From Burkholderiales bacterium (GTDB taxonomy: Bacteria; Pseudomonadota; Gammaproteobacteria; Burkholderiales; Burkholderiaceae_C): 64,000 bases of DNA. The stretch is from contig JAPLPK010000067.1 in assembly GCA_026400275.1 (NCBI GenBank), positions 17,195 through 81,194 on the forward strand, given 5' to 3'. A program made the translations under genes and the position numbers. Within the stretch, counting starts at the first letter, position 1. Every line of letters begins with the position of its first letter. Under the pieces are notes generated by a model. It did not search any database. It worked only from the letters and a program-made list of their open reading frames with translations, and was not told the DNA's origin. Positions 43,327 to 61,972 of the stretch are shown here, one piece after another.

Positions 43327-43980
43327 ATGAGTCGATTGACAGCCAGCACGGCGGATACCAAGGGCCAGATCCGCCAGGCCAATGAAGAGCTGATACTCGC
43401 CGCGGCAGAACGCGTGTTTGCCGGGGCGGGTTTCAGTGGCGCCACCATGGCGCAGATTTCCGAAGAGTCCGGCCTGCCCAAGGCCAATCTGCACTATTAC
43501 TTCGGCAACAAGGAGGCGCTGTACCGCGCGGTGCTGGCCCGCATTTTGGAGGACTGGCTGGCACCCACCCACGGCATCACCCCTGAGGCCGACCCGAGCC
43601 AGGCCATAGGTGCTTACATCCGCAGCAAGATGGCCCTGTCTGCTGCGCGGCCGCATGCGTCCAAAGTCTGGGCCAACGAGCTGCTGCACGGCGCCACCGT
43701 GGTGCGGCAGCTGCTGGCCACCGAGCTGCGTGCCACCGTGCGCGCCAAGTCCGCCGTCATCGACCAATGGATTGCCGAGGGCAAGATGGCACCGGTAGAC
43801 AGCACGCACCTGTTCTTCACCATCTGGGCCGCGACCCAGACCTATGCCGACTTCGACATCCAGGTCAGCGCCGTGCTGGGTAAGCCAGCCCTGACCCGCA
43901 ACGACCACAGCCGCGCTACCACCCATGTGCTGGCCTTGATACTGCGCGGCTGCGGCCTGAACCCAGACCCCGCGCCATGA
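43327..43980 (+). CDS. TetR-family regulator, RutR-like
   Basis: 217 residues. The TetR helix-turn-helix is clear (ILAAAERVFAGAGFSGATMAQISEESGLPKANLHYYFGNKEALYRAVL). The KANLHYYF variant and the C-terminal domain fit RutR (YcdC), which senses uracil and thymine in E. coli. The start MSRLTAS at 43327 has AGGG just upstream. Its stop overlaps the psuK start (ATGA). PsuG releases uracil, so the regulator may respond to the product of the genes it is coupled to. This is inference. Confidence 0.88.
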   Translation: MSRLTASTADTKGQIRQANEELILAAAERVFAGAGFSGATMAQISEESGLPKANLHYYFGNKEALYRAVLARILEDWLAPTHGITPEADPSQAIGAYIRSKMALSAARPHASKVWANELLHGATVVRQLLATELRATVRAKSAVIDQWIAEGKMAPVDSTHLFFTIWAATQTYADFDIQVSAVLGKPALTRNDHSRATTHVLALILRGCGLNPDPAP

Positions 43981-46895: not shown

Positions 46896-47867
46896 ATGAA
46901 AAACACACTCAAACTGGGCTTCTTGGCCGCCGCGCTGGTTTCCACCTTCTCCGCTTGGGCCGATCCGGCCATCATTTTTGACATGGGTGGCAAGTTTGAC
47001 AAATCCTTCAACCAAAGCGCCTATGAAGGCATGGAGCGCTGGAAGAAGGAAACCGGCAAGCCCTACCTCGAATTCGAAGTCGCCAACGAAACCCAGCGCG
47101 AGCAAGCCATCCGCCGCATGGCCGAGCGCGGTGCCAGCCCCATCATTGGCATCAGCTTCAGCCAGGCTTCTGCCATGGCCAAGGTGTCCAAGGAATTCCC
47201 CAAGCTGCAATTCGCCATCATCGATGACGTGGTGGAAGCACCCAACGTGCAGTCGGTAGTGTTCAAGGAACACGAAGGCAGCTTCCTGGTCGGCATGTTG
47301 GCCGCAGAAGCCAGCAAGACCGGCAAGGTCGGTTTTGTGGGCGGCATGGACATTCCGCTGATCCGCAAATTCCAGTGCGGCTACGAACAAGGCGCCAAGT
47401 ACGCCAACCCCAAGGTGGAAACCTTTGCCAACATGACCGGCACCACCGGTGCTGCCTGGAACGACCCAGGCCGTGGCGGCGAGCTGACCAAGTCCCAGTT
47501 TGCCAAGGGCGCTGACGTGGTGTTCGCCGCTGCCGGCGGTACTGGCATTGGTGTGTACCAGGCAGCCAAAGATGCCGGCAAACTCGCCATCGGTGTGGAC
47601 AGTAACCAGAACTATGTGCAACCCGGCACCATGCTGTCCTCCATGGTCAAGCGCGTGGACGTGGCGGTGTACAACATCCTGAAGAACTACAAGGCCGGTG
47701 TGACCTCCTTGGGCTTGAAGGAAGACGGTGTGGGCTACTCCATGGACGAGTTCAACGCCAAGCTGGTGACGCCCGAGATGAAGAAGAAGGTCGATGCCGC
47801 CAAGGCCGACATCGTCAGCGGCAAGATCAAGGTCGTGGACTACATGACCGCCAACGCTTGTAAGTAA
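46896..47867 (+). CDS. BMP-family ABC substrate-binding protein (nucleoside type)
   Basis: 323 residues with a signal peptide (MKNTLKLGFLAAALVSTFSAWA). The mature start PAIIFDMGGKFDKSFNQSAYEGMERW and the FADVVFAAAGGTGIGVYQAAK-like region are typical of BMP (PnrA/Med) proteins, which bind purine or pyrimidine nucleosides. It heads a complete importer: ATPase and two permeases follow. Together with psuK/psuG upstream it suggests uptake of pseudouridine or other nucleosides. Confidence 0.95.
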   Translation: MKNTLKLGFLAAALVSTFSAWADPAIIFDMGGKFDKSFNQSAYEGMERWKKETGKPYLEFEVANETQREQAIRRMAERGASPIIGISFSQASAMAKVSKEFPKLQFAIIDDVVEAPNVQSVVFKEHEGSFLVGMLAAEASKTGKVGFVGGMDIPLIRKFQCGYEQGAKYANPKVETFANMTGTTGAAWNDPGRGGELTKSQFAKGADVVFAAAGGTGIGVYQAAKDAGKLAIGVDSNQNYVQPGTMLSSMVKRVDVAVYNILKNYKAGVTSLGLKEDGVGYSMDEFNAKLVTPEMKKKVDAAKADIVSGKIKVVDYMTANACK

Positions 47868-47945
47868 GCACACCCCCAGGCTACACACTTCGTGTTTTCG
47901 CCAACCCCCTTGCAGGGGGCGAACCCAGTGGCCCGGCGGAGCCGG
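47868..47945 (+). repeat. GC-rich dispersed element, copy 3
   Basis: CACACCCCCAGGCTACACACTTCG...TTCGCCAACCCCCTTGCAGGGGGCGAACCCAGTGG fills most of the 132-base gap between the binding-protein and ATPase genes. The C5/G5 hairpin may reduce downstream expression relative to the binding protein. It matches copies 1 and 2. Confidence 0.75.
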
Positions 47946-47999
47946 TTCCACGGGTTCTCTGGCGGGACACAGTTGTAGCCCTCGGCATCTCGGATTTCC

Positions 48000-49565
48000 A
48001 TGACAACCCAACAATCTTCTGTGGTGGATGCGACCGCTGTGCACATGGCGGGCATCAGCAAGCGTTTTGGCGCTGTGCGGGCCAATGATGGCGTGGACTT
48101 GCGCGTGCGTTCTGGCACGGTGCACGGCATCGTGGGCGAGAACGGCGCGGGCAAAAGCACGCTGATGTCCATCTTGTATGGCTTCTACAGTGCCGACAGC
48201 GGCAGCATCGAAGTCTTTGGCCAGCCGGCCCGCATCCGCAATGCGCATGAAGCCATCGCGCTGGGCATTGGCATGGTGCACCAGCACTTCATGCTGGTGG
48301 ACACGCTGACCGCGCTGGAAAACGTCATGCTGGGCGCCGAGCCCCACGCTCTGTTGAGCAAAGCAGAGAGCATCGTGCGTAGCAAGCTGGGCGCGCTGAT
48401 GCAATCTACTGGCCTGCACGTGGACCTGGACGCCACGGTGGACCAGCTTTCCGTCGGCGACCGCCAGCGCCTGGAAATTTTGAAGGCGCTGTACCGGGGC
48501 GCCAAGATTCTGATCCTGGATGAGCCCACCGCCGTGCTCACCCCACAGGAAACCGAACAACTGTTCGAGGTGCTGGCGCGCCTGCGCACGCAGGGCACCA
48601 CCATCTTGCTGATCACCCACAAGCTCAAGGAAGTGATGCGCTTGTGTGACCAGGTCACCGTCATGCGCAGCGGGCGCGTGGTGCATGAATGTGCCATTGC
48701 CCAGGCCTCGGTGGAGATACTGGCCGAAGCCATGGTGGGCCGCAAAGTGAATATGGGCCGCCAGGGCGATGCGGCCATCGCATTGGGTGCGGTGCTGCTG
48801 CAGGTACGCGGGCTGGTGGTGCGCGACGCGCTGCAAGTGACCCGTCTGCAAGACTTTGACCTGAGCCTGCGTGCCGGCGAAATCGTCGGCGTGGCCGGCG
48901 TTGCTGGCAACGGCCAGAGCGAGCTGCTGGAGGTCTTGTCCGGCCTGCTGGCCCCTAGCGCGGGCGAACTGCAGCTGGGTGGCCGCAGCTTCACCCCTGG
49001 CCAGTGGCTTACACCGGGTGTAGCGCGTAGTTTGGGCCTGGCCCATGTGCCCGAAGACCGGCACGCCCGCGCCATGGTGATGAGCTTTGCCGCCTGGGAG
49101 TCTGCGGTGCTGGGCTACGAGGCCCTGCCCGAATACAGCAGCGCAGGGGGCTGGATGCGCCACGGCGCGATGCGCGCGGCCACGGCGGCCATGATGGAGC
49201 GCTTCGATGTGCGTCCTCGCAACCCGGACCTGGTCAGCTCTAAATTCTCTGGCGGCAACCAGCAAAAGCTGGTGTTGGCGCGCGAGATTGGCCAGGCGCC
49301 CAAAGTGCTTCTGGTGGGCCAGCCCACGCGGGGCGTGGACATTGGCGCGATCGAATTCATCCACGCCCAGCTGCGCGCCATGCGCGATGCGGGCTGTGCC
49401 GTGCTGGTGGTGTCCAGCGAGCTGGACGAAATTTTGGCCCTGGCCGACCGCGTGCTGGTGCTGAACCAGGGCTGTGTGACGGGCGAGCTGCCGATTGCAG
49501 ACTGCAGCGAGGCCCGGCTGGGCCTGCTCATGGTGGAAACCAAAGAACAAGGATTGAAGGCATGA
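48000..49565 (+). CDS. Nucleoside-type ABC transporter ATPase (two ATPase domains)
   Basis: 521 residues in two ABC halves, as in sugar/nucleoside importers. The first half has Walker A GENGAGKSTLMSILYGFY and signature LSVGDRQRLEILKAL with Walker B ILILDEPTAVLTP. The second has GVAGNGQSELLEVL and FSGGNQQKLVLAREI. The degenerate second Walker A is usual for this family. It overlaps the first permease start by 4 bases (ATGA). Confidence 0.96.
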   Translation: MTTQQSSVVDATAVHMAGISKRFGAVRANDGVDLRVRSGTVHGIVGENGAGKSTLMSILYGFYSADSGSIEVFGQPARIRNAHEAIALGIGMVHQHFMLVDTLTALENVMLGAEPHALLSKAESIVRSKLGALMQSTGLHVDLDATVDQLSVGDRQRLEILKALYRGAKILILDEPTAVLTPQETEQLFEVLARLRTQGTTILLITHKLKEVMRLCDQVTVMRSGRVVHECAIAQASVEILAEAMVGRKVNMGRQGDAAIALGAVLLQVRGLVVRDALQVTRLQDFDLSLRAGEIVGVAGVAGNGQSELLEVLSGLLAPSAGELQLGGRSFTPGQWLTPGVARSLGLAHVPEDRHARAMVMSFAAWESAVLGYEALPEYSSAGGWMRHGAMRAATAAMMERFDVRPRNPDLVSSKFSGGNQQKLVLAREIGQAPKVLLVGQPTRGVDIGAIEFIHAQLRAMRDAGCAVLVVSSELDEILALADRVLVLNQGCVTGELPIADCSEARLGLLMVETKEQGLKA

Positions 49566-50692
49566 GCGCGACGAATACGGCCAAGCCCCTGCCGCGATGG
49601 GCCGATGTGTTCCTGCTGCCTGCGGTGAATTTGCTGATTGCGCTGCTGGTGGCCGGCGTGGTGGTGGCCCTGGTGGGCCAGAACCCACGCCAGGTGATGG
49701 AAGTGCTGGTGCACGGCGCCTTTGGCACGCAGCGGGGCTTAAGCTACACCCTGTACTACGCCACCACCTTCATCTTTGCCGGGCTGGCGGTGTCTGTCGC
49801 CTTTCACGGCGGCCTGTTCAACATCGGCGTGGAAGGCCAGGCCGTGGTGGGCGGGCTGGGTACGGGCCTGATTGCGCTGTGGCTGTCGCACAGTCTGCCA
49901 GCTGTGGTCATGCTGCCCTTGATGCTGCTGGCCGGCGTGCTGTTCGGCATGCTGTGGGCGGCCATACCCGGTTATTTGCAGGCCTACCGCCACAGCCATG
50001 TGGTGATCACCACCATCATGTTCAACTTTCTGGCGACCAGCCTGCTGGCCTATCTGCTGGTGAACCGGCTGAAGCCACCGGGCACCATGTCGGTAGAAAG
50101 TGCGCCCTTTGCCGATTCGGCCAAGCTGCCCGGCATGCAGCAGGCGCTGGCCTGGATAGGCGTGGACTGGCCGTCGTCGCCGCTCAATGTCAGCCTGTTC
50201 CTGGCCCTGGCAGCGGCGGTAGGCGTGTACTTTTTGCTCTGGCACAGCCGGGCCGGCTACCGCTTGCGGGCCGTGGGCTCCAGCGAAGGTGCTGCCTCGT
50301 ATGCGGGCATCAATGCCAAGCACCAGGTGGTGTTTGCCATGGCCTTGTCGGGCGGCCTGTCCGGCATGATCGGCATGAACGAAATCGCTGGCGTCAACGG
50401 CAAGCTGTTGCTGGACTTTGTGGCCGGTGCCGGCTTCACTGGCATTGCGGTGGCATTGATGGGGCGTAACCACCCGTTTGGCATCGTGCTGGCCAGCATC
50501 CTGTTTGGTGCGCTGTTCCAGGGCGGGGCCGAAGTGAGTTTTGATGTGCCCGGCTTCAGCCGCGACATGGTGGTGATGCTGCAAGGCTTCATCGTGATGT
50601 TCTCGGGTGCCATGGCCTATGTGTTCGCGCCCATGCTGTCTCGCGGTCTGGCCCTGTTGACCCCCAAGACCACAGGAGCCCAGCATGGATGA
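49562..50692 (+). CDS. Nucleoside-type ABC permease (first)
   Basis: 376 residues, polytopic, of the BPD_transp_2 family. Typical stretches are FAGLAVSVAFHGGLFNIGVEGQ and YRLRAVGSSEGAASYAGINAKHQVVFAMALSGGLSGMIGMNEIAGVNGKL. It pairs with the permease encoded next, which it overlaps by 8 bases, to form the membrane channel of the BMP-type importer. Confidence 0.95.
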   Translation: MSATNTAKPLPRWADVFLLPAVNLLIALLVAGVVVALVGQNPRQVMEVLVHGAFGTQRGLSYTLYYATTFIFAGLAVSVAFHGGLFNIGVEGQAVVGGLGTGLIALWLSHSLPAVVMLPLMLLAGVLFGMLWAAIPGYLQAYRHSHVVITTIMFNFLATSLLAYLLVNRLKPPGTMSVESAPFADSAKLPGMQQALAWIGVDWPSSPLNVSLFLALAAAVGVYFLLWHSRAGYRLRAVGSSEGAASYAGINAKHQVVFAMALSGGLSGMIGMNEIAGVNGKLLLDFVAGAGFTGIAVALMGRNHPFGIVLASILFGALFQGGAEVSFDVPGFSRDMVVMLQGFIVMFSGAMAYVFAPMLSRGLALLTPKTTGAQHG

Positions 50693-51653
50693 AGCCCTGA
50701 TTGCCGACCTGCTGGCGTCCACGCTGCGTATGGCCACGCCCCTGATCCTGTGCGCCCTGGCCGGCCTGCTGTCCGAACGCGCCGGCGTCATCGACGTGGG
50801 GCTGGAGGGCAAGATGCTGTTTGCCGCCTTCATCGCTGGTGCCAGCGGCGCCGCCTTTGGCTCCATCACGATCGCCTTGCTAGCCTCCATAGGCATCGCC
50901 GTGGCCTTGTCCTGGATGCATGGCTATGCCTGCGTCAGCCACCGGGGGGACCAGGTGGTGTCCGGTGTGGCCTTGAACATCATTGCCACGGGGCTGACGG
51001 TGGTGCTGGGCCTGGCCTGGTTCCACCAGGGCGGGCAGACACCTACCGTAGCCGATGGCGTGCGCCTGCACGCGCTGTGGCCCGGCGCGGCAGACGCCTT
51101 GCAAGGCATTCCCTTGGTCGGGCAGATCATCGGCCTAGGCCTGCTCAGCCACAACATCATGGTCTACTTGGCGCTGGCCTTGGTGGCGGCTGTGTGGTGG
51201 CTGGTGTACCGCACGCGTTTTGGCCTGCGCCTGCGCGCAGTGGGCGAAAACGCCCACATGGTGGATGCTGCCGGCGTCTCGGTGCTGCGCCTGCGCTACA
51301 CCGCGCTGACGCTGAACGGCATTCTGTGCGGCCTGGCCGGCAGCTATATGGTGCTGGCGCAGAACGCCTCGTTTGTGCCGCATATGACCGCCGGCCGTGG
51401 CTTCATGGCCCTGGCCGCCATGATCTTTGGCAACTGGCGCCCGGTGCGCGCGTTGTGGGCGTGCTTGTTGTTCGGCTTTCTGGATGCTATGGCCATCCGC
51501 CTGCAAGGCGTCAGCCTGCCCGGCGTGGGCGAGGTACCAGTGCAGGCCGTGCAGGCCTTGCCCTACCTGCTGACGGTGGTGCTGCTGGCCGGCTTCATCG
51601 GCAAGACAGCCGTGCCCAAGGCTTTGGGCCAGCCCTACGTGAAAGAGCGCTGA
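50685..51653 (+). CDS. Nucleoside-type ABC permease (second)
   Basis: 322 residues, polytopic, of the BPD_transp_2 family. It has AGLLSERAGVIDVGLEGKMLFAAF and FGLRLRAVGENAHMVDAAGVSVLRLRYTALTLNGILCGLAGSYM, as in the second permease of nucleoside importers. It overlaps the first permease gene and ends the operon, with a terminator 22 bases later. Confidence 0.95.
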   Translation: MDEALIADLLASTLRMATPLILCALAGLLSERAGVIDVGLEGKMLFAAFIAGASGAAFGSITIALLASIGIAVALSWMHGYACVSHRGDQVVSGVALNIIATGLTVVLGLAWFHQGGQTPTVADGVRLHALWPGAADALQGIPLVGQIIGLGLLSHNIMVYLALALVAAVWWLVYRTRFGLRLRAVGENAHMVDAAGVSVLRLRYTALTLNGILCGLAGSYMVLAQNASFVPHMTAGRGFMALAAMIFGNWRPVRALWACLLFGFLDAMAIRLQGVSLPGVGEVPVQAVQALPYLLTVVLLAGFIGKTAVPKALGQPYVKER

Positions 51654-51675
51654 AGCAGGTGCTTTCGAGCTGATT

Positions 51676-51715
51676 AAAAAGGGGTGTTCGCCAGTGGGGC
51701 GTGCACCCCTTTTTT
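51676..51715 (+). terminator. Rho-independent terminator after the BMP importer operon
   Basis: AAAAA-GGGGTG ... CACCCC-TTTTTT with a 17-base loop, 22 bases after the last permease stop. The A and T runs extend the stem. Confidence 0.8.
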
Positions 51716-51863: not shown

Positions 51864-52865
51864 ATGCCGTATTCACTTTCTCTGCTCGATAAGAGCCCCA
51901 TCCCGCCAGGTGCCAGCGCCGCCCAAGCATTGCAGCGTACCGTGGCGCTGGCCCAGCGCGCCGAAGAACTGGGCTACCGGCGCTTCTGGGTGGCAGAGCA
52001 CCATGGCAACCCGACCTTGGCCAGCAGCGCGCCCGAGGTGCTGATCGCCCACATCCTGGCCCGTACCACGCGTATCCGCGTCGGCTCCGGCGGCGTGATG
52101 CTGCAGCATTACAGCCCTTTCAAGGTGGCCGAGGCCTTCAAGCTGCTGGCCGCGCTGGCGCCTGGCCGTGTGGACCTGGGCGTCGGCAAGGCGCCGGGTG
52201 GGTTGCCGCTGGCCAGCCACGCATTGCAGTGGCTGCATGACGCAGCGCGTAAGCCCGACTTTGCGCAGCAACTGGCCGACCTGGATGCATTTTTGGAAGG
52301 AACCGTGATCGACGGCCATCCACTCAGCGGCGCTGTGGCCTACCCCACACCGCCTGAGCTGCCCGAGCGCATTCTGCTCGGCGGCAGTGCGGCCAGCGCC
52401 GAGTTGGCTGCGCGCCTGGGTTGGGACTTCACCTACGCTGGGCATTTCAATGCCGATCCGGCCAACATCGAGCGCTCGGTTGCGGCCTACCAGCAGGCCA
52501 CGGGCCGACCTGCGGCGCTGGCCTTATATGCCTTTGCCGCCGCAAGCAAGGACAAAGCCGAGCGTCTGGTGGGGGCGCTGCGCATCTTCAAACTGCACCT
52601 GTCCACTGGCCAGAGTGTGAATCTGCCGAGCGAAGAGGCCGCAGCCGAGTTTGCGCGCCAGGCCGGCGTGGCCGACTACCGCATTGAAGAGACGCGGCCT
52701 TACGTGCTCACCGGCAGGCCCGAGAGCGTGCGCCACGCGCTGGACGCCCTGAGCGCCCGCTACGGCATCCAGGAATTTGTCATCGACACCCCGGTGGTGG
52801 GCTTTGCCGACCGCTGGGCTTCCGTAGAGCTGCTGGCCGGCGCAGAGCACGCCATAGCTGCTTGA
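51864..52865 (+). CDS. LLM-class flavin-dependent oxidoreductase
   Basis: 333 residues of the bacterial luciferase-like fold. GYRRFWVAEHHGNPTLASSAPEVLIAHILARTTRIRVGSGGVMLQHYSPFKVAEAFKLLAALAPGRVDLGVGKAPGG is the type seen in LLM oxidoreductases (YhbW/MsnO8 style). It is the first gene of an eight-gene operon and has its own 210-base upstream region containing GAATG-AATCGA-CATTC. It probably uses reduced FMN and oxygen on a small sulfur or nitrogen compound. No flavin reductase is encoded nearby. Confidence 0.92.
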   Translation: MPYSLSLLDKSPIPPGASAAQALQRTVALAQRAEELGYRRFWVAEHHGNPTLASSAPEVLIAHILARTTRIRVGSGGVMLQHYSPFKVAEAFKLLAALAPGRVDLGVGKAPGGLPLASHALQWLHDAARKPDFAQQLADLDAFLEGTVIDGHPLSGAVAYPTPPELPERILLGGSAASAELAARLGWDFTYAGHFNADPANIERSVAAYQQATGRPAALALYAFAAASKDKAERLVGALRIFKLHLSTGQSVNLPSEEAAAEFARQAGVADYRIEETRPYVLTGRPESVRHALDALSARYGIQEFVIDTPVVGFADRWASVELLAGAEHAIAA

Positions 52866-52891
52866 TTTTTGACCCAGAACGAGACACCACC

Positions 52892-54238
52892 ATGGCACAG
52901 ACACCCATTCGCTTCGGCATCATGCTGCACGGCGCCGGCGGCCACATGAACGCCTGGAAGCACCCCAGCGGCCCGGCCGACGCTAGCGTCAACTTGGACT
53001 TCTACATCCGTACCGCTCAGAAGGCCGAAGCTGCAGGCATCGCCTTCGCCTTCGTGGCCGACGGGCTGTATATCAACGAGAAGTCGATACCGCATTTCCT
53101 GAACCGCTTTGAGCCCATTTCCATTCTGTCGGCGCTGGCGGCAGTGACCCGCAAGATCGGCCTGGCCGGCACCATCTCCACCTCGTACAGCGACCCGTTT
53201 ACCGTGGCGCGGCAGTTCGCCTCGCTGGACCTGATCAGCCAGGGCCGCGCTGGCTGGAACGTGGTCACCACGCCCCTCGAAGGCACGGCCAAAAACTACA
53301 GCCGCACGCACCCCGAGCATGCGCAGCGCTACCAGATCGCTGACGAATACCTGCAGGTCACACAAGGCCTGTGGGACAGTTGGGACGACGATGCCGTGGT
53401 GCGCAACCGCAGCACCGGCCAGTTCTTCGACAAGAGCAAGCTGCACACGCTGGACTTCAAAGGCCGCTTTTTCGAGGTCGCTGGCCCGCTGAACATCGGC
53501 CGCTCGCCCCAGGGCCAGCCGGTGATCTTCCAGGCAGGTTCATCTGACGCAGGCATTGGCCTGGCTGGCAAATACGCCGACGCGGTGTTCACCCATTCGC
53601 CCTCGTTGGAAGAAACCCGCAGCTTCTCGCGGCAGGTGAAGGCCAGCGCGATTGCCCAGGGCCGTGCCGGTTCCGACGTGAAGGTATTTCCCGGCATCGG
53701 CCCGGTGGTGGGCGCCACGCAGGCCGAGGCTGACGCCAAGTACCAGGCGATCCGCGAGCTGCTCAGCATCGACGAGGCCCTGGCCTACCTGGGCCGGTTT
53801 TTCGACCACCACGACTTCAGCCAGTACCCGCTGGACGCACCGTTCCCTGAGCTGGGTGACATCGGCAAAAACAGCTTTCGCTCCACCACCGACCGCATCA
53901 AGGCCGAGGCCGCGAAAAGCGGGCAGAGCTTGCGCGAGGTGGCGCTGGAAGTGGCTACGCCGAAGTCGCAGTTTGTCGGCACCGGCGAGCGCATTGCCGA
54001 TGAAATCATCCGCTGGATCGACGCCGAGGCGGCCGATGGCTTCATCCTCGGTTTCCCGGTGGTGGCGCAAGGCCTGGATGACTTCATTGCGCATGTGATC
54101 CCCGTGCTGGAAGCCCGTGGCCGCTATGAACGCACGCTGCCTGGCACCACCCTGCGGGACCACCTGGGTCTGCCGCGCAAGGCCAGCCGCTATGCCGAGC
54201 CCAGCAGCTCTGCGCACGCCGAACGGAAGGTAGCCTGA
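52892..54238 (+). CDS. NtaA/SnaA/DszA-family FMN-dependent monooxygenase
   Basis: 448 residues (start MAQTPIRFGIMLHGAGGHMNAW). Motifs of the NtaA/SnaA/SoxA/DszA group are clear: AGIAFAFVADGLYIN, FEPISILSALAAVTRKIGLAGTISTSYSDPFTVARQFASLDLISQGRAGWNVVTT and IFQAGSSDAGIGLAGKYADAVFT. These enzymes oxidise C-S or C-N bonds with reduced FMN. B. subtilis YxeK and YtnJ of this family cleave N-acetylated S-substituted cysteines. Here it is coupled by TGATG to an M20 amidohydrolase, matching that pathway. Confidence 0.93.
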   Translation: MAQTPIRFGIMLHGAGGHMNAWKHPSGPADASVNLDFYIRTAQKAEAAGIAFAFVADGLYINEKSIPHFLNRFEPISILSALAAVTRKIGLAGTISTSYSDPFTVARQFASLDLISQGRAGWNVVTTPLEGTAKNYSRTHPEHAQRYQIADEYLQVTQGLWDSWDDDAVVRNRSTGQFFDKSKLHTLDFKGRFFEVAGPLNIGRSPQGQPVIFQAGSSDAGIGLAGKYADAVFTHSPSLEETRSFSRQVKASAIAQGRAGSDVKVFPGIGPVVGATQAEADAKYQAIRELLSIDEALAYLGRFFDHHDFSQYPLDAPFPELGDIGKNSFRSTTDRIKAEAAKSGQSLREVALEVATPKSQFVGTGERIADEIIRWIDAEAADGFILGFPVVAQGLDDFIAHVIPVLEARGRYERTLPGTTLRDHLGLPRKASRYAEPSSSAHAERKVA

Positions 54239-55428
54239 TGCCGCGTGAAGAAGCTACCGACGTCCGCCGCGTGGAATCTCGCGTGGCGTCGTATATCAAC
54301 GAGTTCGTGGCATTGCGCCAGGACATCCACCAACACCCCGAGCTTTCTTTCAAAGAGCACCGAACCTCTGACATCGTGGCTGCGCGCTTGGCATCGTGGG
54401 GCTATGAAGTCACGCGTGGGATCGCAGGCACCGGTGTGGTCGGTAGTCTGCGCCGTGGCAACGGCAGCAAGACACTGGGTATCCGCGCCGATATGGACGC
54501 TCTGCCCATCCAGGAAGCCACCGGCCTGCCCTATGCCAGCGTGAATGCCGGCGTGATGCATGCGTGCGGCCATGATGGGCACACCGCCATCCTCCTGGCG
54601 GCGGCGCGCACGCTGGCCGAGGTGGGCCAATTCGACGGCCAGTTGCAGCTGATCTTCCAGCCGGCCGAGGAAACCGGCACGGGTGCCCGCAGGATGATTT
54701 CCGAGGGCCTGTTCGACCGCTTCCCGTGCGACGCAGTGTTTGGCTTGCACAACTGGCCGGGCGTGCCTGCCGGCCACCTGGGCTGCGTGGCCGGTCCCGC
54801 CATGGCCTCTATCGACCAGGCCGTCATCACCATTCGCGGCAAGGGCGGCCATGGTGCCGAGCCCCACCGCACGGTGGACCCGGTGGTCGTCAGCGCCCAC
54901 CTGATCACTGCGCTGCAGACCATTGTTTCGCGCAATGTGGACCCGCTGGATATGGGCGTGGTTACGGTGGGTTCGATCCACGGCGGATCGGCCTCGAATG
55001 TGATCCCTGACGCGGTGGAGCTGAAGCTGACCATGCGTTCCTTCCGTCCCGAAATCCGCAAGCTCTTGCAAGAGCGCGTACCCGCGCTGGCCAAGGCCCA
55101 GGCCGAGAGCTTTGGTGCCGAAGCCGAGGTGGACTACCAGCTGGGATTTCCGGCGGTGCTGAACCATGTGGACGAGACCGCGTTTGCCCGCAGCGTGGCC
55201 GAAGACACCTTCGGCGCCGGCCAGGTCGAGCCCGGCTTTCGCCCGCGTACCGCCAGCGAAGACTTCGCCTACATGCTGCAGGCGCGCAAGGGCAGCTATG
55301 TGTTTTTGGGCAACGGCGAAGGCGCTTCGCTGCACAGCCCGCGCTACAACTTTAACGACGCCGTGCTGGGCCTGGCCGCCACCTACTGGACCCGGCTGGC
55401 CGAGCGGTTTCTGGCACCCGCTGTATAA
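54238..55428 (+). CDS. M20-family amidohydrolase (N-acyl amino acid deacylase)
   Basis: 396 residues. Motifs of M20/peptidase D amidohydrolases are present: RQDIHQHPELSFKEHRT, GIRADMDALPI, MHACGHDGHTAILL and FQPAEETGTGARRMI. Binding of two metals by Cys, His and Glu in these motifs is known for the family. It should deacylate N-acetyl amino acids. With the neighbouring GNAT and monooxygenase it would remove the protecting acetyl group after C-S cleavage, as B. subtilis YxeP and SndA do. The start shares a base with the previous stop. Confidence 0.93.
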   Translation: MPREEATDVRRVESRVASYINEFVALRQDIHQHPELSFKEHRTSDIVAARLASWGYEVTRGIAGTGVVGSLRRGNGSKTLGIRADMDALPIQEATGLPYASVNAGVMHACGHDGHTAILLAAARTLAEVGQFDGQLQLIFQPAEETGTGARRMISEGLFDRFPCDAVFGLHNWPGVPAGHLGCVAGPAMASIDQAVITIRGKGGHGAEPHRTVDPVVVSAHLITALQTIVSRNVDPLDMGVVTVGSIHGGSASNVIPDAVELKLTMRSFRPEIRKLLQERVPALAKAQAESFGAEAEVDYQLGFPAVLNHVDETAFARSVAEDTFGAGQVEPGFRPRTASEDFAYMLQARKGSYVFLGNGEGASLHSPRYNFNDAVLGLAATYWTRLAERFLAPAV

Positions 55429-55444
55429 GCCAAGGAGACTTTCC

Positions 55445-56035
55445 GTGAGCGAAACATTCCTCTACACCCAACCGCACGATCCGGCCGCCCGGCCGCTGAT
55501 CGAGGCATTGACGCGCGAGTACGACACCCGTTACGGCGACATACCGCGCGCCGAGGGCGAGCCGAAAGAAATGGACCGCTACCCGCCCGAGGTGTTTGCG
55601 CCACCGCACGGCAACTTTGTGCTGCTGCTGCGCGATGGTGTGGCGATTGGCGGCGGCGCCTTCATGCGGCTGGACCCGCACACCGCCGAGTTCAAACGCA
55701 TCTGGACCCATGCCGAGTTGCGCCGCCAGGGCCTGGCCCGCAAGATCATGGTCGAGCTGGAGGCGCAGGCCGTGCGCCAGGGCTATAGCCGTGGCTACCT
55801 GACCACCGGCTTTCGCCAGCCCGAGGCGGTGGCGCTGTACCTGGGCCATGGCTACACGCCATTGTTCGATCTGGCGCAGGACCCGGCCACCATCGGCAGC
55901 CTGCCGTTCCAGAAGCTGCTGGTGCCCAGCGCCAAGGTCGAGTTTCAAGAGATCGTGGTCAAGCGCAGCGATCTGCTGCAAGGTGTACTCGCGCTGCGCG
56001 GCGCTGCGGCACTGGAAGGAGCCGTCGCACCATGA
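55445..56035 (+). CDS. GNAT-family N-acetyltransferase
   Basis: 196 residues, starting at GTG 55445 ([10 protein letters not shown]), with AAGGAG 7 bases upstream; the track ORF start lies inside the M20 gene. The acetyl-CoA segment is [27 protein letters not shown], followed by [21 protein letters not shown]. It is probably the acetylating enzyme for the substrate imported by the ABC system (YxeL/YtmI role); this rests on context. It overlaps the transporter gene start by 4 bases. Confidence 0.9.
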
Positions 56036-57831
56036 CCAGTACCACCTATTTTGACTTGGCCCCCGAGGCCGCCGCAGCGCCCAATGTGGCGGCGCCCGCA
56101 CCCGCTCCGGCTGCACGGGAAAAAGGCGACTACTCGCAGTACAGGGTCGTCCCTGCGCGTTACCCGGGCCGTACCGTCGGCACGGTGCTGGCGGTCTTGG
56201 TGATTGCCGCCGTACTGCAGTCGGTGTTCACCAATCCGCGCTGGGGCTGGGGCGTGTTTGCCGAATGGTTCTTTGCCGAGCCGGTGCTGATCGGCCTGGG
56301 CCGCACGCTGCTGCTCACGGCAGCGGGCGCGCTGTTTGGCTTCATTCTCGGCACCGGGCTGGCGCTGGCGCGGGTCTCGCGCTCGCCCCTGCTGGCGCGC
56401 CTGTCCTGGGGTTTTGTGTGGATCTTCCGCTCGATTCCGGTGATCGTGCTGCTGTTGATCATCAACAACCTGGGCTACCTGTATGAAACGGTGTCGCTGG
56501 GTGTGCCATTCACCGGCACGGTGTTTTTTTCGTACCCCACGACGCAACTGATCAGCCCGTTTGTGGCGGCGCTACTAGGCTTGACCTTGAACCAGGCGGC
56601 GTTTTCTTCGGAGATCATCCGTGGCGGCATCTTGTCGGTAGACCAGGGCCAGTTGGAGGCGGCTGCCGCGCTGGGGCTGCCACGCCGCCGCCAGGCGTTT
56701 CGTATCGTGTTGCCGCAGGCCATGCGCTCGATACTGCCTAGCGCCTTCAATGAAATCATCGGCCTGGCCAAGGGCACCTCCAACGTGTATATCCTGGCGC
56801 TACCCGAGCTGTTCTACACCATCCAGATCATCTACCGCCGCAACCTGGAGGTGATTCCATTGCTAATGGTGGCTACCGTCTGGTACCTGGTGATCCTCAC
56901 CGTGCTGTCGATTGCCCAGCACCAGATCGAGCGTCACTTCTCCAAGGGTGCGCTGCGCAACCACCAGGCTGCACCCTGGGCCCGCTGGTTGCGCGCACGC
57001 CTCCCAGCGCAGGCCACAGCGCCAGCGGTGCGCCGCGAAGCTCCGGCGCGCCGTGCCGTGCCACCCAGCACGGGTGGCGAGGTCACGGTGCATGGCATTT
57101 CGAAGAGCTTTGGCGCGCTGAAGGTGCTGCAGGACGTGACCTTGAGCGTGCCACGCGGTAGCGTGACCGTGGTGCTCGGCCCGTCAGGCTCTGGCAAATC
57201 GACCCTGCTGCGCACCATCAACCACCTGGAGCGCGTGGACGAGGGCTTTATCGCCATCGACGGCGAACTGGTCGGCTACCGCAAGGACGCCGACACGCTG
57301 TACGAGCTGCGCGAGAGCGACATCCTGGCGCGCCGTGTCGATGTCGGCATGGTGTTCCAGAACTTCAATCTGTTCCCGCACCTGACGGTGCTGGAAAACA
57401 TCGTCGAGGCACCGATTGCCGTGCGCGGCCAGCACCGGGCGGATGCCGAGTCGCAAGCCTTCGAGCTATTGGCCCGCGTGGGTCTGGCCGACAAGGCCCA
57501 CGCCTATCCGCTCCAGCTGTCGGGCGGCCAGCAGCAGCGCGTGGCGATTGCCCGGGCGCTGGCGCTGCGGCCCAAGGTGTTGCTGTTTGATGAGCCCACA
57601 TCTGCGCTGGACCCCGAGCTGGTGGGCGAGGTGCTGGACGTGATCAAGGAGCTGGCGCGCTCAGGCACCACCCTGCTGATCGTCACGCACGAGATCGGTT
57701 TTGCCCGTGAGGTGGCCGACCGCATCGTCTTCATGGAGCAGGGCCGCATCGTCGAAGTGGGCACGCCCGACCAGGTGTTCAACGCCCCGCAACACGCCCG
57801 TACTGCAGCCTTCTTGGCCAAGGTGCTGTAG
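56032..57831 (+). CDS. Amino-acid ABC transporter permease-ATPase fusion
   Basis: 599 residues. An Ala/Pro-rich cytoplasmic N-terminus (1-45) leads to a HisM-type permease (about 45-305) with coupling loop [43 protein letters not shown] basic Ala-rich linker follows, then a HisP/GlnQ-type ATPase (about 345-599): [55 protein letters not shown] and VTHEI. Permease and ATPase are usually separate proteins. Fusion forms are known in some proteobacterial polar amino acid importers. A likely cystine or S-substituted cysteine importer, from context. Confidence 0.94.
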
Positions 57832-57869
57832 CCCACAGCCCATCACTTACCCACGCTGATCCTCTGGCT

Positions 57870-57890
57870 GGCCGTACGCCCTGTACGGCC
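57870..57890. repeat. GGCCGTAC/GTACGGCC hairpin between transporter and binding-protein genes
   Basis: GGCCGTAC-GCCCT-GTACGGCC is a perfect 8 bp stem, extendable by three weaker pairs. No T-run follows. It lies in the 119-base gap between the fused transporter gene and the first binding-protein gene. It could stop exonucleases or balance levels, since binding proteins are needed in excess. Confidence 0.6.
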
Positions 57891-57950
57891 GGCAGGGGAG
57901 AGGCTTGCCGTGATTTTTCTCAACCTGAACCTTTTGATTGGACCCACACC

Positions 57951-58886
57951 ATGCGACTTCATGCCCCCTTCCGAAATGTCCTGATCGGCATCGCTACCGC
58001 CGCCGCCACTTTGCTGCCGCTGCACGCCTGGTCCCAGGCCGGTGACCTGGACCCCGCGCAACCGGGCCGCATCCGCGCCCAGAAGTCCGACGAAGCGCTG
58101 AAGCTGCTGTCTAAAGACTACAAGTTCACCAAGGACGGCACTTTCACCGTGGGTATCGCGCTGGGCCGGTTGCCCTTGGGCTCTTTCGCCAATGACAACA
58201 AAACCTTTGTCGGCAACGAGCCCGACATCGCACTGCTGGTGGCCGACAGCCTGGGTCGCAAGCTGGAGCTGGTGCCCGTCGCCTGGGCCGACTGGCCGCT
58301 GGGCCTGCAGTCCGGCAAGTTCGACGCGGTGGTGTCCAACGTCACCGTCACCGAGGCGCGCAAGGAGAAGTTCGACTTTTCCACCTACCGCAACGACACG
58401 CTGGGCATTTACGTGAAGAGCGATAGCAAGGTCGCCAGCGTGAAGGAGCCTAAAGACATAGCCGGCCTGCGTGTGATCGTCGGCGCCAGCACCAACCAAG
58501 AGCAAATCCTGCTGCGCTGGAACCAGCAGAACCTGGCCGCAGGCCTGAAGCCGGTGGAGATCCAGTACTACGACGATGACGTGGTGCAGCGCCTGGCGAT
58601 CCAGTCGAACCGCGCCGATGCCTACCTGGGCCCGAACGCGCTGGCTGCCTACGAGGCCCGCGACGGCAAGACCCGGCTGGCCGGCACCTTCTCTGGCGGC
58701 TGGCCACTCAGCGCCGAAATTGCCGTTACCACGCGCAAAGGCTCGGGCCTGGCCGACGCGGTGACCGCCGCGCTGAACGAACAGATCCGCAACGGCAACT
58801 ACACCAAGGCGCTGGCCCGCTGGAACCTGGGCTCCGAGGCCATTGAGAAGTCGCGCACCAACCCGCCTGGGCTGCCCAAGTCCTGA
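57951..58886 (+). CDS. Polar amino-acid ABC substrate-binding protein, tandem copy 1
   Basis: 311 residues with a signal peptide (cut near LHAWSQA). It is an SBP_bac_3 protein: GTFTVGIALGRLPLGSFANDNKTFVGNEPDIALLVADSLGRKLELVPVAWADWPLGLQSGKFDAVVSNVTVTEARKEKFDFSTYR, ending in NPPGLPKS. It is a close paralogue of the following protein. It probably delivers ligand to the fused transporter. Confidence 0.94.
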   Translation: MRLHAPFRNVLIGIATAAATLLPLHAWSQAGDLDPAQPGRIRAQKSDEALKLLSKDYKFTKDGTFTVGIALGRLPLGSFANDNKTFVGNEPDIALLVADSLGRKLELVPVAWADWPLGLQSGKFDAVVSNVTVTEARKEKFDFSTYRNDTLGIYVKSDSKVASVKEPKDIAGLRVIVGASTNQEQILLRWNQQNLAAGLKPVEIQYYDDDVVQRLAIQSNRADAYLGPNALAAYEARDGKTRLAGTFSGGWPLSAEIAVTTRKGSGLADAVTAALNEQIRNGNYTKALARWNLGSEAIEKSRTNPPGLPKS

Positions 58887-58912
58887 TGCGGAATTTTGGT
58901 AGGAACCACACC

Positions 58913-59845
58913 ATGCTGTGTATTTCATCTTTCTGCCGCCGCGCTGCCTTGGCTGCTGTCTGGCTCTACGCGGTAGCGGCTGGGGCCGCCGACCGCTTTG
59001 ACTTCAGCCCCGAGCAGGCGGGCCGCGTGCGCGCCACCAAAGACGCCGAGGCCATCAAGGCCCTGCCCAAGGACTTCCGCTTTGTAAAAGACGGGGTGTT
59101 TACCGTGGCGATTTCGCCTATGGCACCGCCGATTTCGAGCTACGCCACCGACGCGAAGACCGTGGTCGGCTTCGACCCCGACTACGCGCAGCTGGTGGCC
59201 GACGCCCTGGGCCTGAAGCTGGACCTGCAGCCTATTGCCTGGGCCGACTGGCCGCTGGGCTTGGTCTCCGGCAAATACGACGCGGTGATCTCCAACGTGG
59301 GCGTGACCGAGCAGCGCAAGGAGAAGTTCGATTTCTCGACCTACCGCCTGGGCCTGCACGGCTTTTACGTGCGGGCCGACAGCGCTATCCGCAGCATCAA
59401 GGAACCCAAGGACGTGGCGGGGCTGAAGATCGTCACCGGCGCTGGTACCAACCAGGAAAAAATCCTGCTGGAATGGAACCGGCAGAACACCGCTGCGGGC
59501 CTTAAGCCGCTGGAGCTGCAGTACTTTGACGACGACGTGGCCCGGGTGCTGGCGGTGGTGTCGGGGCGCGCAGATGCCAACTTCAACCCCAATGCGCCGC
59601 AGGCCTACCACGCGGCCAAAGAGGGCAAGATCAAGCTGGTCGGCACGGTGAACGCCGGCTGGCCGCTGAAGTCTGACGTGGCCATCACCACGCGCAAGGG
59701 CAGCGGCCTGGCGCAGGCGCTAACCATCGCGGGCAACGGCCTTATCAAGGCCGGCAAATACCAGCAAGCGCTGGCCCGCTGGAGCCTGAACGAAGAGGCA
59801 CTGGCGGCATCGGAAACCAACCCGCCCGGCTTGCCCAAGTTCTAA
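58913..59845 (+). CDS. Polar amino-acid ABC substrate-binding protein, tandem copy 2
   Basis: 310 residues from the ATG at 58913, chosen because TAGGA lies 8 bases upstream; an ATG at 58886 overlapping the previous stop (TGATG) would add 9 residues. The signal peptide is MLCISSFCRRAALAAVWLYAVAAGAA. The mature sequence parallels copy 1 throughout (FVKDGVFTVAIS, AWADWPLGLVSGKYDAVISN, RKEKFDFSTYR, GAGTNQEKILL, NPPGLPKF), which marks a tandem duplication. Differences around the ligand pocket (PMAPPISSY against GRLPLGSF) suggest a second ligand. Confidence 0.93.
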   Translation: MLCISSFCRRAALAAVWLYAVAAGAADRFDFSPEQAGRVRATKDAEAIKALPKDFRFVKDGVFTVAISPMAPPISSYATDAKTVVGFDPDYAQLVADALGLKLDLQPIAWADWPLGLVSGKYDAVISNVGVTEQRKEKFDFSTYRLGLHGFYVRADSAIRSIKEPKDVAGLKIVTGAGTNQEKILLEWNRQNTAAGLKPLELQYFDDDVARVLAVVSGRADANFNPNAPQAYHAAKEGKIKLVGTVNAGWPLKSDVAITTRKGSGLAQALTIAGNGLIKAGKYQQALARWSLNEEALAASETNPPGLPKF

Positions 59846-59847
59846 CC

Positions 59848-60891
59848 ATGGCGATCGAAAAACTGGGCTTCTTGACCCCCGGCAACTACACCGATACCGA
59901 CCCCTTCACCGGGCTGGAGCAGAGCCTGCAGCTGTTCCAGCAGGGCGAAGACCTGGGCTACGACCACGGCTGGGTGCGCCAGCGGCACCTGGAGCGCGCC
60001 GTGTCCTCGGCCAGCGTGTTTCTGGCTGCGGCCAGCCAGCGCACCCGCCGCATCGCCCTGGGCACGGCCGTGATCCAGATGGGCTATGAAAACCCGTTCC
60101 GCCTGGCCGAAGACTTGGCCACGGTGGATGTGCTGTCGCGCGGTCGTTTGCTCGTGGGCCTGAGTGCGGGTGCGCCGCCCTATGGCCCGCTGCTGGGCGA
60201 GCGGTTTCTGGACGGTGACGCCAAGGACGTGGACTATTCGCACCATCGCATTGCCCGGCTGCGTAGCAATTTGCAGGGCGGCTGGATAGGCGACGAAACG
60301 GCGCTGATTCCATCGCCGGCAGGGCCACAGCGCGCGCGCCTGCACCCCTGGGCGCCGGGCCTGGCCGAGCGCCTGTGGTACGGCGGCGGCTCGCGCCGGT
60401 CGGTGGAGTGGGCCGGGCGCAACGGCTTCAACCTGTTGCTGGGCAATATCAATACCGGCGAAACGTCGGACGACTTCTACGTGACCCAATACGGCCATGT
60501 GGCGCTGTTCCAGCAGCACTGGGCGGCCGACTACACGCCTCGCATCGCCCTGGGCCGTGTCATCGTGCCGCTGGACAGCGCCGACGCCACCACCCGCCAG
60601 CGCTACCGCGCCTATGCCGAGAGCCGCAAGGCCCGCACGCTGCAGCCGCAAGGCGAGCGCCGTACGCTGTATGCGCCCGACCTGGTGGGCACCAGCGACG
60701 AGATTCTGGAGCTGCTGCACCAAGACCCTGTGCTGCCGCTGGTGCGCGAGCTGCGCCTGGAACTGCCCTACGACTTTGCGCCGCAGGACTACGCGCAAAT
60801 CCTGCACGACGTGGTGCGCTCCATCGCGCCGGCGCTGGGCTGGCAGCCTGCTGCCGAGGCGGTTGCGCCGGTGCCGGAGGCTGTGTTTTAA
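59848..60891 (+). CDS. LLM-class flavin-dependent oxidoreductase (second)
   Basis: 347 residues of the luciferase-like fold. Opening segments are EKLGFLTPGNYTDTDPFTGLEQSLQLFQQGEDLGYDHGWVRQRHLERAVSSASVFLAAASQRTRRIALGTAVIQMGYENPFRLAEDLATVDVLSRGRL. It starts 2 bases after the second binding-protein gene and ends the operon. It differs from the first LLM enzyme and from the NtaA-type monooxygenase, so the operon encodes three distinct flavin oxidoreductases. Confidence 0.92.
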   Translation: MAIEKLGFLTPGNYTDTDPFTGLEQSLQLFQQGEDLGYDHGWVRQRHLERAVSSASVFLAAASQRTRRIALGTAVIQMGYENPFRLAEDLATVDVLSRGRLLVGLSAGAPPYGPLLGERFLDGDAKDVDYSHHRIARLRSNLQGGWIGDETALIPSPAGPQRARLHPWAPGLAERLWYGGGSRRSVEWAGRNGFNLLLGNINTGETSDDFYVTQYGHVALFQQHWAADYTPRIALGRVIVPLDSADATTRQRYRAYAESRKARTLQPQGERRTLYAPDLVGTSDEILELLHQDPVLPLVRELRLELPYDFAPQDYAQILHDVVRSIAPALGWQPAAEAVAPVPEAVF

Positions 60892-60997: not shown

Positions 60998-61972
60998 ATG
61001 ACAAAAACCACCACGATCGCCACCCACAGTGGCACTTTCCATGCCGACGACGTTTTTGGCGTTGGCGTTCTGATGGGGGTGTTCCCCGCGCACAGCCTGC
61101 TGCGCACCCGCGACAAGGCCTTGATCGCTACTGCCGACTTTGTGGTCGATGTGGGCGGCACCTGGGACGCCGCCACCGGCCGTTTCGACCACCACCAGCG
61201 CGGCTTTGAAGGCGCGCGCCCGGTGCGTTTGGTCGATGGCCAAAGCGTGCCCGGCGTGGGCTATGCCAGCGCCGGCCTGGTGTGGTCGGCTTACGGCACG
61301 GACTACGTGAAAGCGTGGGCGACCAGCCATGGCCACACACTGGACGACGCTGCGGTGGCCGAGGTGGTGCATTCCATCGACCACTCGCTGGTGCAGTACC
61401 TGGACATCGTGGACACCGGCCAGGGCGATGTGGCGCCCGGCATCTTCGGCCTGTCCAGCCTGGTGGCGCAGCTGAACACCCATTGGCTGGAAGAGCAGGG
61501 CCTGGACCTGGCCGCCAAAGCCCAGCTGCTGGAAACCCGCTTCCGCGAGGCCATCGCCATCACCCGTAAGTTTCTGGACCATGCCATCAGCAAAAAAGTG
61601 GCGCAGATCCGCGCCATGGACATCGTGCGCCAGGCGCCGCGCCTGCTGGGCGGCAAGCTGCTGCACCTGCGTGAGGGCGGCATGCCCTGGACCCGCGTGG
61701 TGGTCGATGAAATGCCCGAGGTGATGTTCGTCATCTACCCCGACTCCGACGGCAACCAGTACCAGATCAAGACCGTGCCGACGGAGCCAGGCTCGTTCGA
61801 CACCCGTATGGATCTGCCCGCCAGCTGGGCCGGCCTGCGCGACCAGGAACTGGCCGCCGTCACCGGCGTGCCCGACAGTGTGTTCTGCCACCTCAACCTG
61901 TTCATCGGCGGAGCCCGTAGCTTCGAAGGCGCGCTGAAGCTGGCCGAACTGGCATTGGCGGAGCCCGTCTGA
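60998..61972 (+). CDS. MYG1-family (UPF0160) metal-dependent hydrolase
   Basis: 324 residues. THSGTFHADDVFGVGVL near the start and FDHHQRGFEGAR further on are the DHH-like metal-binding motifs of the MYG1 family. Eukaryotic MYG1 is a 3'-5' RNA exonuclease; bacterial members are poorly studied. It stands alone after a repeat, 106 bases from the operon. The function here is not known beyond a probable phosphoesterase activity. Confidence 0.93.
   Translation: MTKTTTIATHSGTFHADDVFGVGVLMGVFPAHSLLRTRDKALIATADFVVDVGGTWDAATGRFDHHQRGFEGARPVRLVDGQSVPGVGYASAGLVWSAYGTDYVKAWATSHGHTLDDAAVAEVVHSIDHSLVQYLDIVDTGQGDVAPGIFGLSSLVAQLNTHWLEEQGLDLAAKAQLLETRFREAIAITRKFLDHAISKKVAQIRAMDIVRQAPRLLGGKLLHLREGGMPWTRVVVDEMPEVMFVIYPDSDGNQYQIKTVPTEPGSFDTRMDLPASWAGLRDQELAAVTGVPDSVFCHLNLFIGGARSFEGALKLAELALAEPV

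Follow-up and report, generated by a model that had tools for sequence, protein, structure and literature searches.

The eight genes at positions 51864-60891 of a 64,000-nucleotide stretch of DNA from a Burkholderiales bacterium (assembly GCA_026400275.1, contig JAPLPK010000067.1; the whole stretch is referred to as the window) raise the question of which pathway is served by three luciferase-like flavin enzymes encoded together with an amino-acid importer. A preliminary description of this DNA had read them as an operon for the salvage of S-substituted cysteines, as in the yxe and ytm operons of Bacillus. The analyses supported the salvage chemistry well, and the match lies specifically with the ytm/sna-tcy-cmo operon, not with yxe/scm; we consider it highly probable that the locus represents the CmoO/CmoJ pathway of S-alkylcysteine salvage in a proteobacterial form. 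Hazra and Begley established the chemistry: after acetylation of S-alkylcysteine, CmoO oxidises the sulfur to the sulfoxide, and CmoJ then splits the product into an aldehyde and N-acetylcysteine sulfenic acid; the pathway has been described as widespread in soil bacteria (PMC10863075). The pathway is already known, and the locus would be a conserved proteobacterial variant of it with one unexplained enzyme.

Orthology of two flavin enzymes and predicted roles of their partners

All eight open reading frames are intact and lie on the + strand, and the gene families reported earlier were confirmed by profile searches, in which NCBIfam profiles were judged against their own cut-offs. The products comprise three Bac_luciferase proteins, one protein with Peptidase_M20 and M20_dimer domains, one Acetyltransf_1 protein, one fusion of BPD_transp_1 to ABC_tran, and two SBP_bac_3 proteins. 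At six of the seven junctions the genes overlap by up to 4 bases or lie no more than 27 bp apart, the exception being the 119 bp (57832-57950) between the transporter and the first substrate-binding protein (SBP1). The likeliest start codons are ATG at 52892 for the second gene and GTG at 55445 for the GNAT gene, while the second substrate-binding protein (SBP2) starts at 58886 or 58913.

The first gene (51864-52865) encodes the luciferase-like enzyme LLM-1, which scored 344 bits against the MsnO8 profile TIGR03558 (cut-off 167) and is 43% identical to YtmO of B. inaquosorum. In the tree it fell into a 31-row clade with YtmO (support 100/100), outside which lay the remaining MsnO8-family proteins of B. 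inaquosorum and a paralog from the same genome as the window. By profile, identity and tree, LLM-1 is an ortholog of Bacillus CmoO/YtmO, predicted to act as an N-acetyl-S-alkylcysteine S-oxygenase. It is one of the two signature enzymes of the pathway and not an addition to it, and of the two luciferase-like enzymes described previously as extra, LLM-1 proved to be a known pathway enzyme (PMC10863075), the other being truly additional.

The neighboring gene (52892-54238) encodes a flavin mononucleotide (FMN)-dependent monooxygenase with 513 bits against the NtaA/DmoA profile TIGR03860 (cut-off 280). Its identity to YtnJ of B. inaquosorum is 55% over 439 amino acids, compared to 44% to YxeK of the same species, and a phmmer search of solved structures gave 552 bits for YtnJ and 219 for EDTA monooxygenase. 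A maximum-likelihood tree of 57 rows placed the protein in a 22-row proteobacterial clade (100/100) that includes PDB 3sdo and is nested in a 34-row clade with the YtnJ proteins of Bacillus, Psychrobacillus and Paenibacillus (96/99), outside which YxeK and the paralogs from the same genome fall. Both trees were midpoint-rooted and their rows were collected by similarity to the window, so that deep placements are tentative. On these comparisons the product is a CmoJ/YtnJ ortholog, not of the YxeK type, and it is predicted to cleave the C-S bond of the sulfoxide. Two more NtaA/DmoA-family enzymes, probably additional organosulfur enzymes judging from their profile scores above the cut-off, are encoded elsewhere in the genome (G000:C102 and G000:C110), one of them adjoining an SsuE-like reductase.

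The M20 protein (54238-55428) matched the amidohydrolase profile TIGR01891 with 355 bits (cut-off 154); its closest solved relative is YxeP (1ysj), and it is 40% identical to YtnL. A role as N-acetylcysteine deacetylase is plausible, by analogy rather than by orthology, because the metal-site motifs HACGHDGH, PAEE and LHN are retained and because deacetylation of N-acetylcysteine has been proven for YtnL and its paralogs (PMC12757645). The GNAT protein (55445-56035; Acetyltransf_1, 1.4e-12) is the predicted S-alkylcysteine N-acetyltransferase; it showed a marginal match to YtmI (22% over 123 amino acids) and no useful match to YxeL.

The remaining partners form a PAAT-type amino-acid ABC importer, whose candidate ligand is an S-alkylcysteine or related sulfur amino acid. 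The permease-ATPase fusion (56032-57831; BPD_transp_1 at 107-303, ABC_tran at 366-524) has an ATPase half 48% identical to Bacillus TcyN. SBP1 (57951-58886), for which the best NCBIfam profile was the cystine-binding PRK11260, below its cut-off, is 61% identical to SBP2 (58913-59845, with the alternative start at 58886).

Comparison with Bacillus operons and distribution of the locus

The Bacillus locus of the ytm/sna-tcy-cmo type (L030) encodes a GNAT, two substrate-binding proteins, two permeases, an ATPase, CmoO, a glutaredoxin-like protein, CmoJ, RibR, an M20 protein and a TauE-like protein. The window shares with it the orthologous CmoO and CmoJ and, in a single cluster, a GNAT, an M20 protein, two family-3 substrate-binding proteins and a PAAT-type importer, but differs in that it has a single permease-ATPase fusion where Bacillus has two permeases and a separate ATPase, that the GNAT and M20 proteins come from other subfamilies, that LLM-2 is added and that the gene order is another. 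The Bacillus operon also has two binding proteins, TcyJ and TcyK (L030; PMC6323116), so that these do not make the locus distinct, and the fusion is common to all proteobacterial loci examined, where it either carries the annotation 'amino acid ABC transporter permease/ATP-binding protein' or was read from the DNA. The Bacillus scm/yxe operon likewise combines an acetyltransferase, an FMN monooxygenase, a deacetylase and an importer in an acetylate-cleave-deacetylate strategy; its monooxygenase, however, lies outside the CmoJ clade, and it has YxeQ, a single substrate-binding protein and no CmoO (L092). Among the eight genes, neither a YxeK ortholog (tree) nor a lyase-family gene (Pfam, NCBIfam) was found, and assignment to yxe/scm was rejected on the tree and the gene content.

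The full eight-gene set was found in the same order in genomes of the window's own family (L078, L079, L082, L083) and on plasmids of Comamonas odontotermitis (L053), Terrarubrum flagellatum (L054), Haematobacter massiliensis (L058), Rhizobium ruizarguesonis (L059) and R. acidisoli (L076). Recurrence of this arrangement in numerous genomes shows that the linkage of the genes is not due to chance. Most proteins of the Comamonas, Terrarubrum, Haematobacter and Rhizobium plasmid loci are 56-80% identical to those of the window, the lowest value being 45% for LLM-1 of Haematobacter. Reduced forms also occur: one other family has a six-gene form lacking LLM-2 and one substrate-binding protein (L086-L089), Burkholderiaceae and relatives have a rearranged form in which the M20 gene is missing and the GNAT and a substrate-binding protein come first (L055, L057, L090, L091), and one locus lacks the M20 gene and one substrate-binding protein (L080). 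The monooxygenase was detected at E<=1e-190 in 7 of 201 sampled genomes of the family and 7 of 399 of the order, and the two further genomes sampled from the genus gave no match at this threshold. The locus is thus accessory and patchily distributed, although composition gave no sign of recent transfer (GC content 0.655 in the operon, 0.631 and 0.663 in the flanks).

The surroundings of the locus in relatives include further sulfur genes: ssuE lies directly 5' of the Comamonas operon, and a cysteine synthase gene adjoins the Haematobacter locus and is near that of Terrarubrum. In Rhizobium (L076:11076-17340 and L059:20077-23758), LLM-2 is followed immediately by a DsbA-family protein and then by msuE and a gamma-glutamylcyclotransferase, which might supply a step acting on sulfenic acids or disulfides and connect the locus to the breakdown of glutathione conjugates. 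In the window's own genome an SsuE scoring above the cut-off is encoded outside the operon (G000:C207:6705-7199), and a gene for an FMNH2 source is therefore present.

Proposed pathway and alternative explanations

The orthology of LLM-1 and of the CmoJ-type enzyme, the conserved linkage and the presence of a reductase gene are directly established, and around them we infer the activities, the substrates and the roles of the GNAT, M20 and LLM-2 proteins as follows. The fused ABC transporter, served by its two binding proteins in the periplasm, would bring in an S-alkylcysteine or related sulfur amino acid, which the GNAT protein would N-acetylate. LLM-1 (CmoO) would oxidise the thioether to the sulfoxide with FMNH2 and O2, and the CmoJ-type enzyme, again with FMNH2 and O2, would cleave the C-S bond to give an aldehyde and N-acetylcysteine sulfenic acid. 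Reduction of the sulfenic acid by cellular thiols and removal of the acetyl group by the M20 enzyme would then yield cysteine, with FMNH2 supplied by the SsuE-type reductase whose gene lies outside the operon. LLM-2, as an accessory flavin enzyme, would extend the route; its simplest role would be to oxidise a further sulfur substrate or the sulfoxide in its other stereoisomeric form, and a possible one would be to clear the aldehyde that CmoJ releases. The host, a soil-type betaproteobacterium, thus very probably imports S-alkylated cysteine and strips off the alkyl group.

Several observations weigh against this assignment. Phylogeny, which had been proposed as its test, gave a divided answer: the monooxygenase groups with YtnJ, while the M20 protein falls outside the YtnL/YxeP group and clusters with two further M20 proteins from its own genome (split 100/99). 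The GNAT appears to be no recognisable ortholog of YtmI or YxeL, the substrate-binding proteins are just about 23% identical to Bacillus TcyK, and some relatives have the locus without M20 (L080, L055, L057, L090, L091). The operon contains neither a sulfur regulator nor a reductase, and the open reading frame list of 51864-60891 holds no counterparts of CmoI (glutaredoxin-like), RibR and YtnM, which are taken as accessory because the published chemistry runs on the acetyltransferase, CmoO, CmoJ and the deacetylase. Finally, substrate specificity cannot be read from the sequence.

Two other substrates were weighed on the same evidence. An operon of the scm/yxe type would use the GNAT to acetylate S-(2-succino)cysteine, the monooxygenase alone to split it and the M20 enzyme to deacetylate N-acetylcysteine; the shared enzyme families, YxeP as best solved relative of the M20 protein and the 44% identity of the monooxygenase to YxeK fit such an operon, but we regard it as highly improbable given that the monooxygenase groups with YtnJ instead of YxeK, that it adjoins a CmoO ortholog, which the scm pathway lacks (L092) and does not need, and that the operon has no 2SL or YxeQ gene. 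The degradation of some other N-acylated or aminopolycarboxylate-type compound, with the sulfur link reduced to family resemblance, would agree with the NtaA-type enzymes included in TIGR03860 and with the lack of orthology between the GNAT and M20 proteins and their Bacillus counterparts. This seems quite improbable too, as the score of the monooxygenase against solved YtnJ far exceeds that against EDTA monooxygenase, a CmoO and a CmoJ ortholog lie side by side in the operon, and ssuE, msuE or cysteine synthase lies near the locus in relatives.

A further explanation, compatible with CmoO/CmoJ salvage and in fact a variant of it, confines salvage to the CmoO-CmoJ part and has LLM-2 and one substrate-binding protein serve a separate sulfur substrate (e.g., a sulfone or sulfonate) under shared regulation only. 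The absence of LLM-2 and the second binding protein from L086-L089 and of M20 from other loci speaks for such a division, as do the close LLM-2 relatives in other sulfur clusters of Burkholderia stagnalis (L071) and Paracoccus (L077); within the family sample, however, LLM-2 occurs only with the locus, and it is directly co-linear with SBP2, so that we consider this variant rather unlikely.

As a CmoO/CmoJ locus, the operon would show that the route worked out in Bacillus also exists as a compact, patchy and often plasmid-borne operon in soil and plant alpha- and betaproteobacteria, to which S-alkylcysteines from detoxified electrophiles would serve as a sulfur source. The current annotations "LLM oxidoreductase" and "nitrilotriacetate monooxygenase" would gain a testable meaning, and two points are singled out: the orphan enzyme LLM-2, and the replacement of one pair of steps, acetylation and deacetylation, by proteins of other subfamilies.

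The additional enzyme LLM-2 and the flanks of the operon

LLM-2 (59848-60891; Bac_luciferase, 4.8e-23) begins 2 bp after SBP2 and, judged by the comparisons above, is the sole enzyme additional to the known pathway enzymes. It reached no NCBIfam cut-off (top profile TIGR04027, 94 of 413 bits), a search of PHROGs gave nothing, and its single-sequence structure prediction was of no use (pLDDT 37.7). Within the family sample it was present in 6 of 7 locus-bearing genomes and in none of the 194 others (Fisher p ~8e-11, relatedness ignored); in the seventh, which has the operon-type monooxygenase, the contig stops inside the operon. LLM-2 is kept at the locus in alpha- and betaproteobacteria, and relatives with 53-66% identity also occur in other sulfur clusters. 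The nearest solved relative, Klebsiella PCX02514 (PDB 8K74), shares the luciferase-like fold family, scores 110 bits against a profile of the LLM-2 family and is reported to hydroxylate poly(acrylic acid) (PMC11354265); its sequence is distant and poly(acrylic acid) has no relation to the locus, so that it gives no hint of the role of LLM-2. That role would most likely be a second sulfur-oxidising activity, or possibly disposal of the aldehyde released by CmoJ. We tentatively suggest, with somewhat more doubt than confidence, that proteobacterial salvage of S-substituted cysteines employs LLM-2 as a third flavin monooxygenase not described before, and that the GNAT and M20 proteins would have been recruited independently of those of Bacillus; LLM-2 might, for example, act as a second sulfoxidase whose stereochemistry is opposite or whose substrate range differs, or oxidise the CmoJ aldehyde.

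LLM-2-like proteins of Burkholderia stagnalis (L071), Paracoccus (L077) and Pantoea (L073) have genes for CmoJ-like or NtaA/DmoA enzymes in their vicinity, in some cases together with ABC transporters of the peptide type. The B. stagnalis gene adjoins NtaA/DmoA enzymes near SfnB, and that of Paracoccus is accompanied by a GNAT, an MsnO8 and several NtaA/DmoA-type enzymes. In Sinorhizobium americanum (L056:19018-19974) the LLM-2 frame is unannotated and broken near codon 276, the other operon genes being intact.

With regard to expression, the gap between the transporter and SBP1 contains a strong GC-rich hairpin on the + strand (57862-57910; -41.7 kcal/mol as RNA for the fold of 57832-57950), which may adjust the mRNA level of the binding proteins as a stabiliser or partial terminator. 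On the 5' side, a GC-rich stem-loop with A- and T-tracts (+ strand, placed at about 51675-51712 from sequence and fold) is the probable terminator of an upstream ABC-transporter operon, so that the salvage operon would be a separate transcription unit, probably with its own promoter. A promoter scan found no sigma-70-type site; when upstream regions were aligned, the window shared a comparable AT-rich block (GCATATCGATA-n-AAAAGNTAGCGCAA) with its two closest relatives alone (L078, L079), and three sequences are too little to call a regulator. On the 3' side a different gene begins at 60998. The upstream ABC operon (46896-51653) encodes a binding protein, a double-domain ATPase, for which the best NCBIfam profile was a B6-type ABC ATPase (below cut-off), and two permeases; it is preceded by a kinase gene at 43977, nearest to pseudouridine kinase, also below cut-off. 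From these matches the upstream unit looks like a nucleoside- or vitamin-type uptake system with no relation to the salvage operon.

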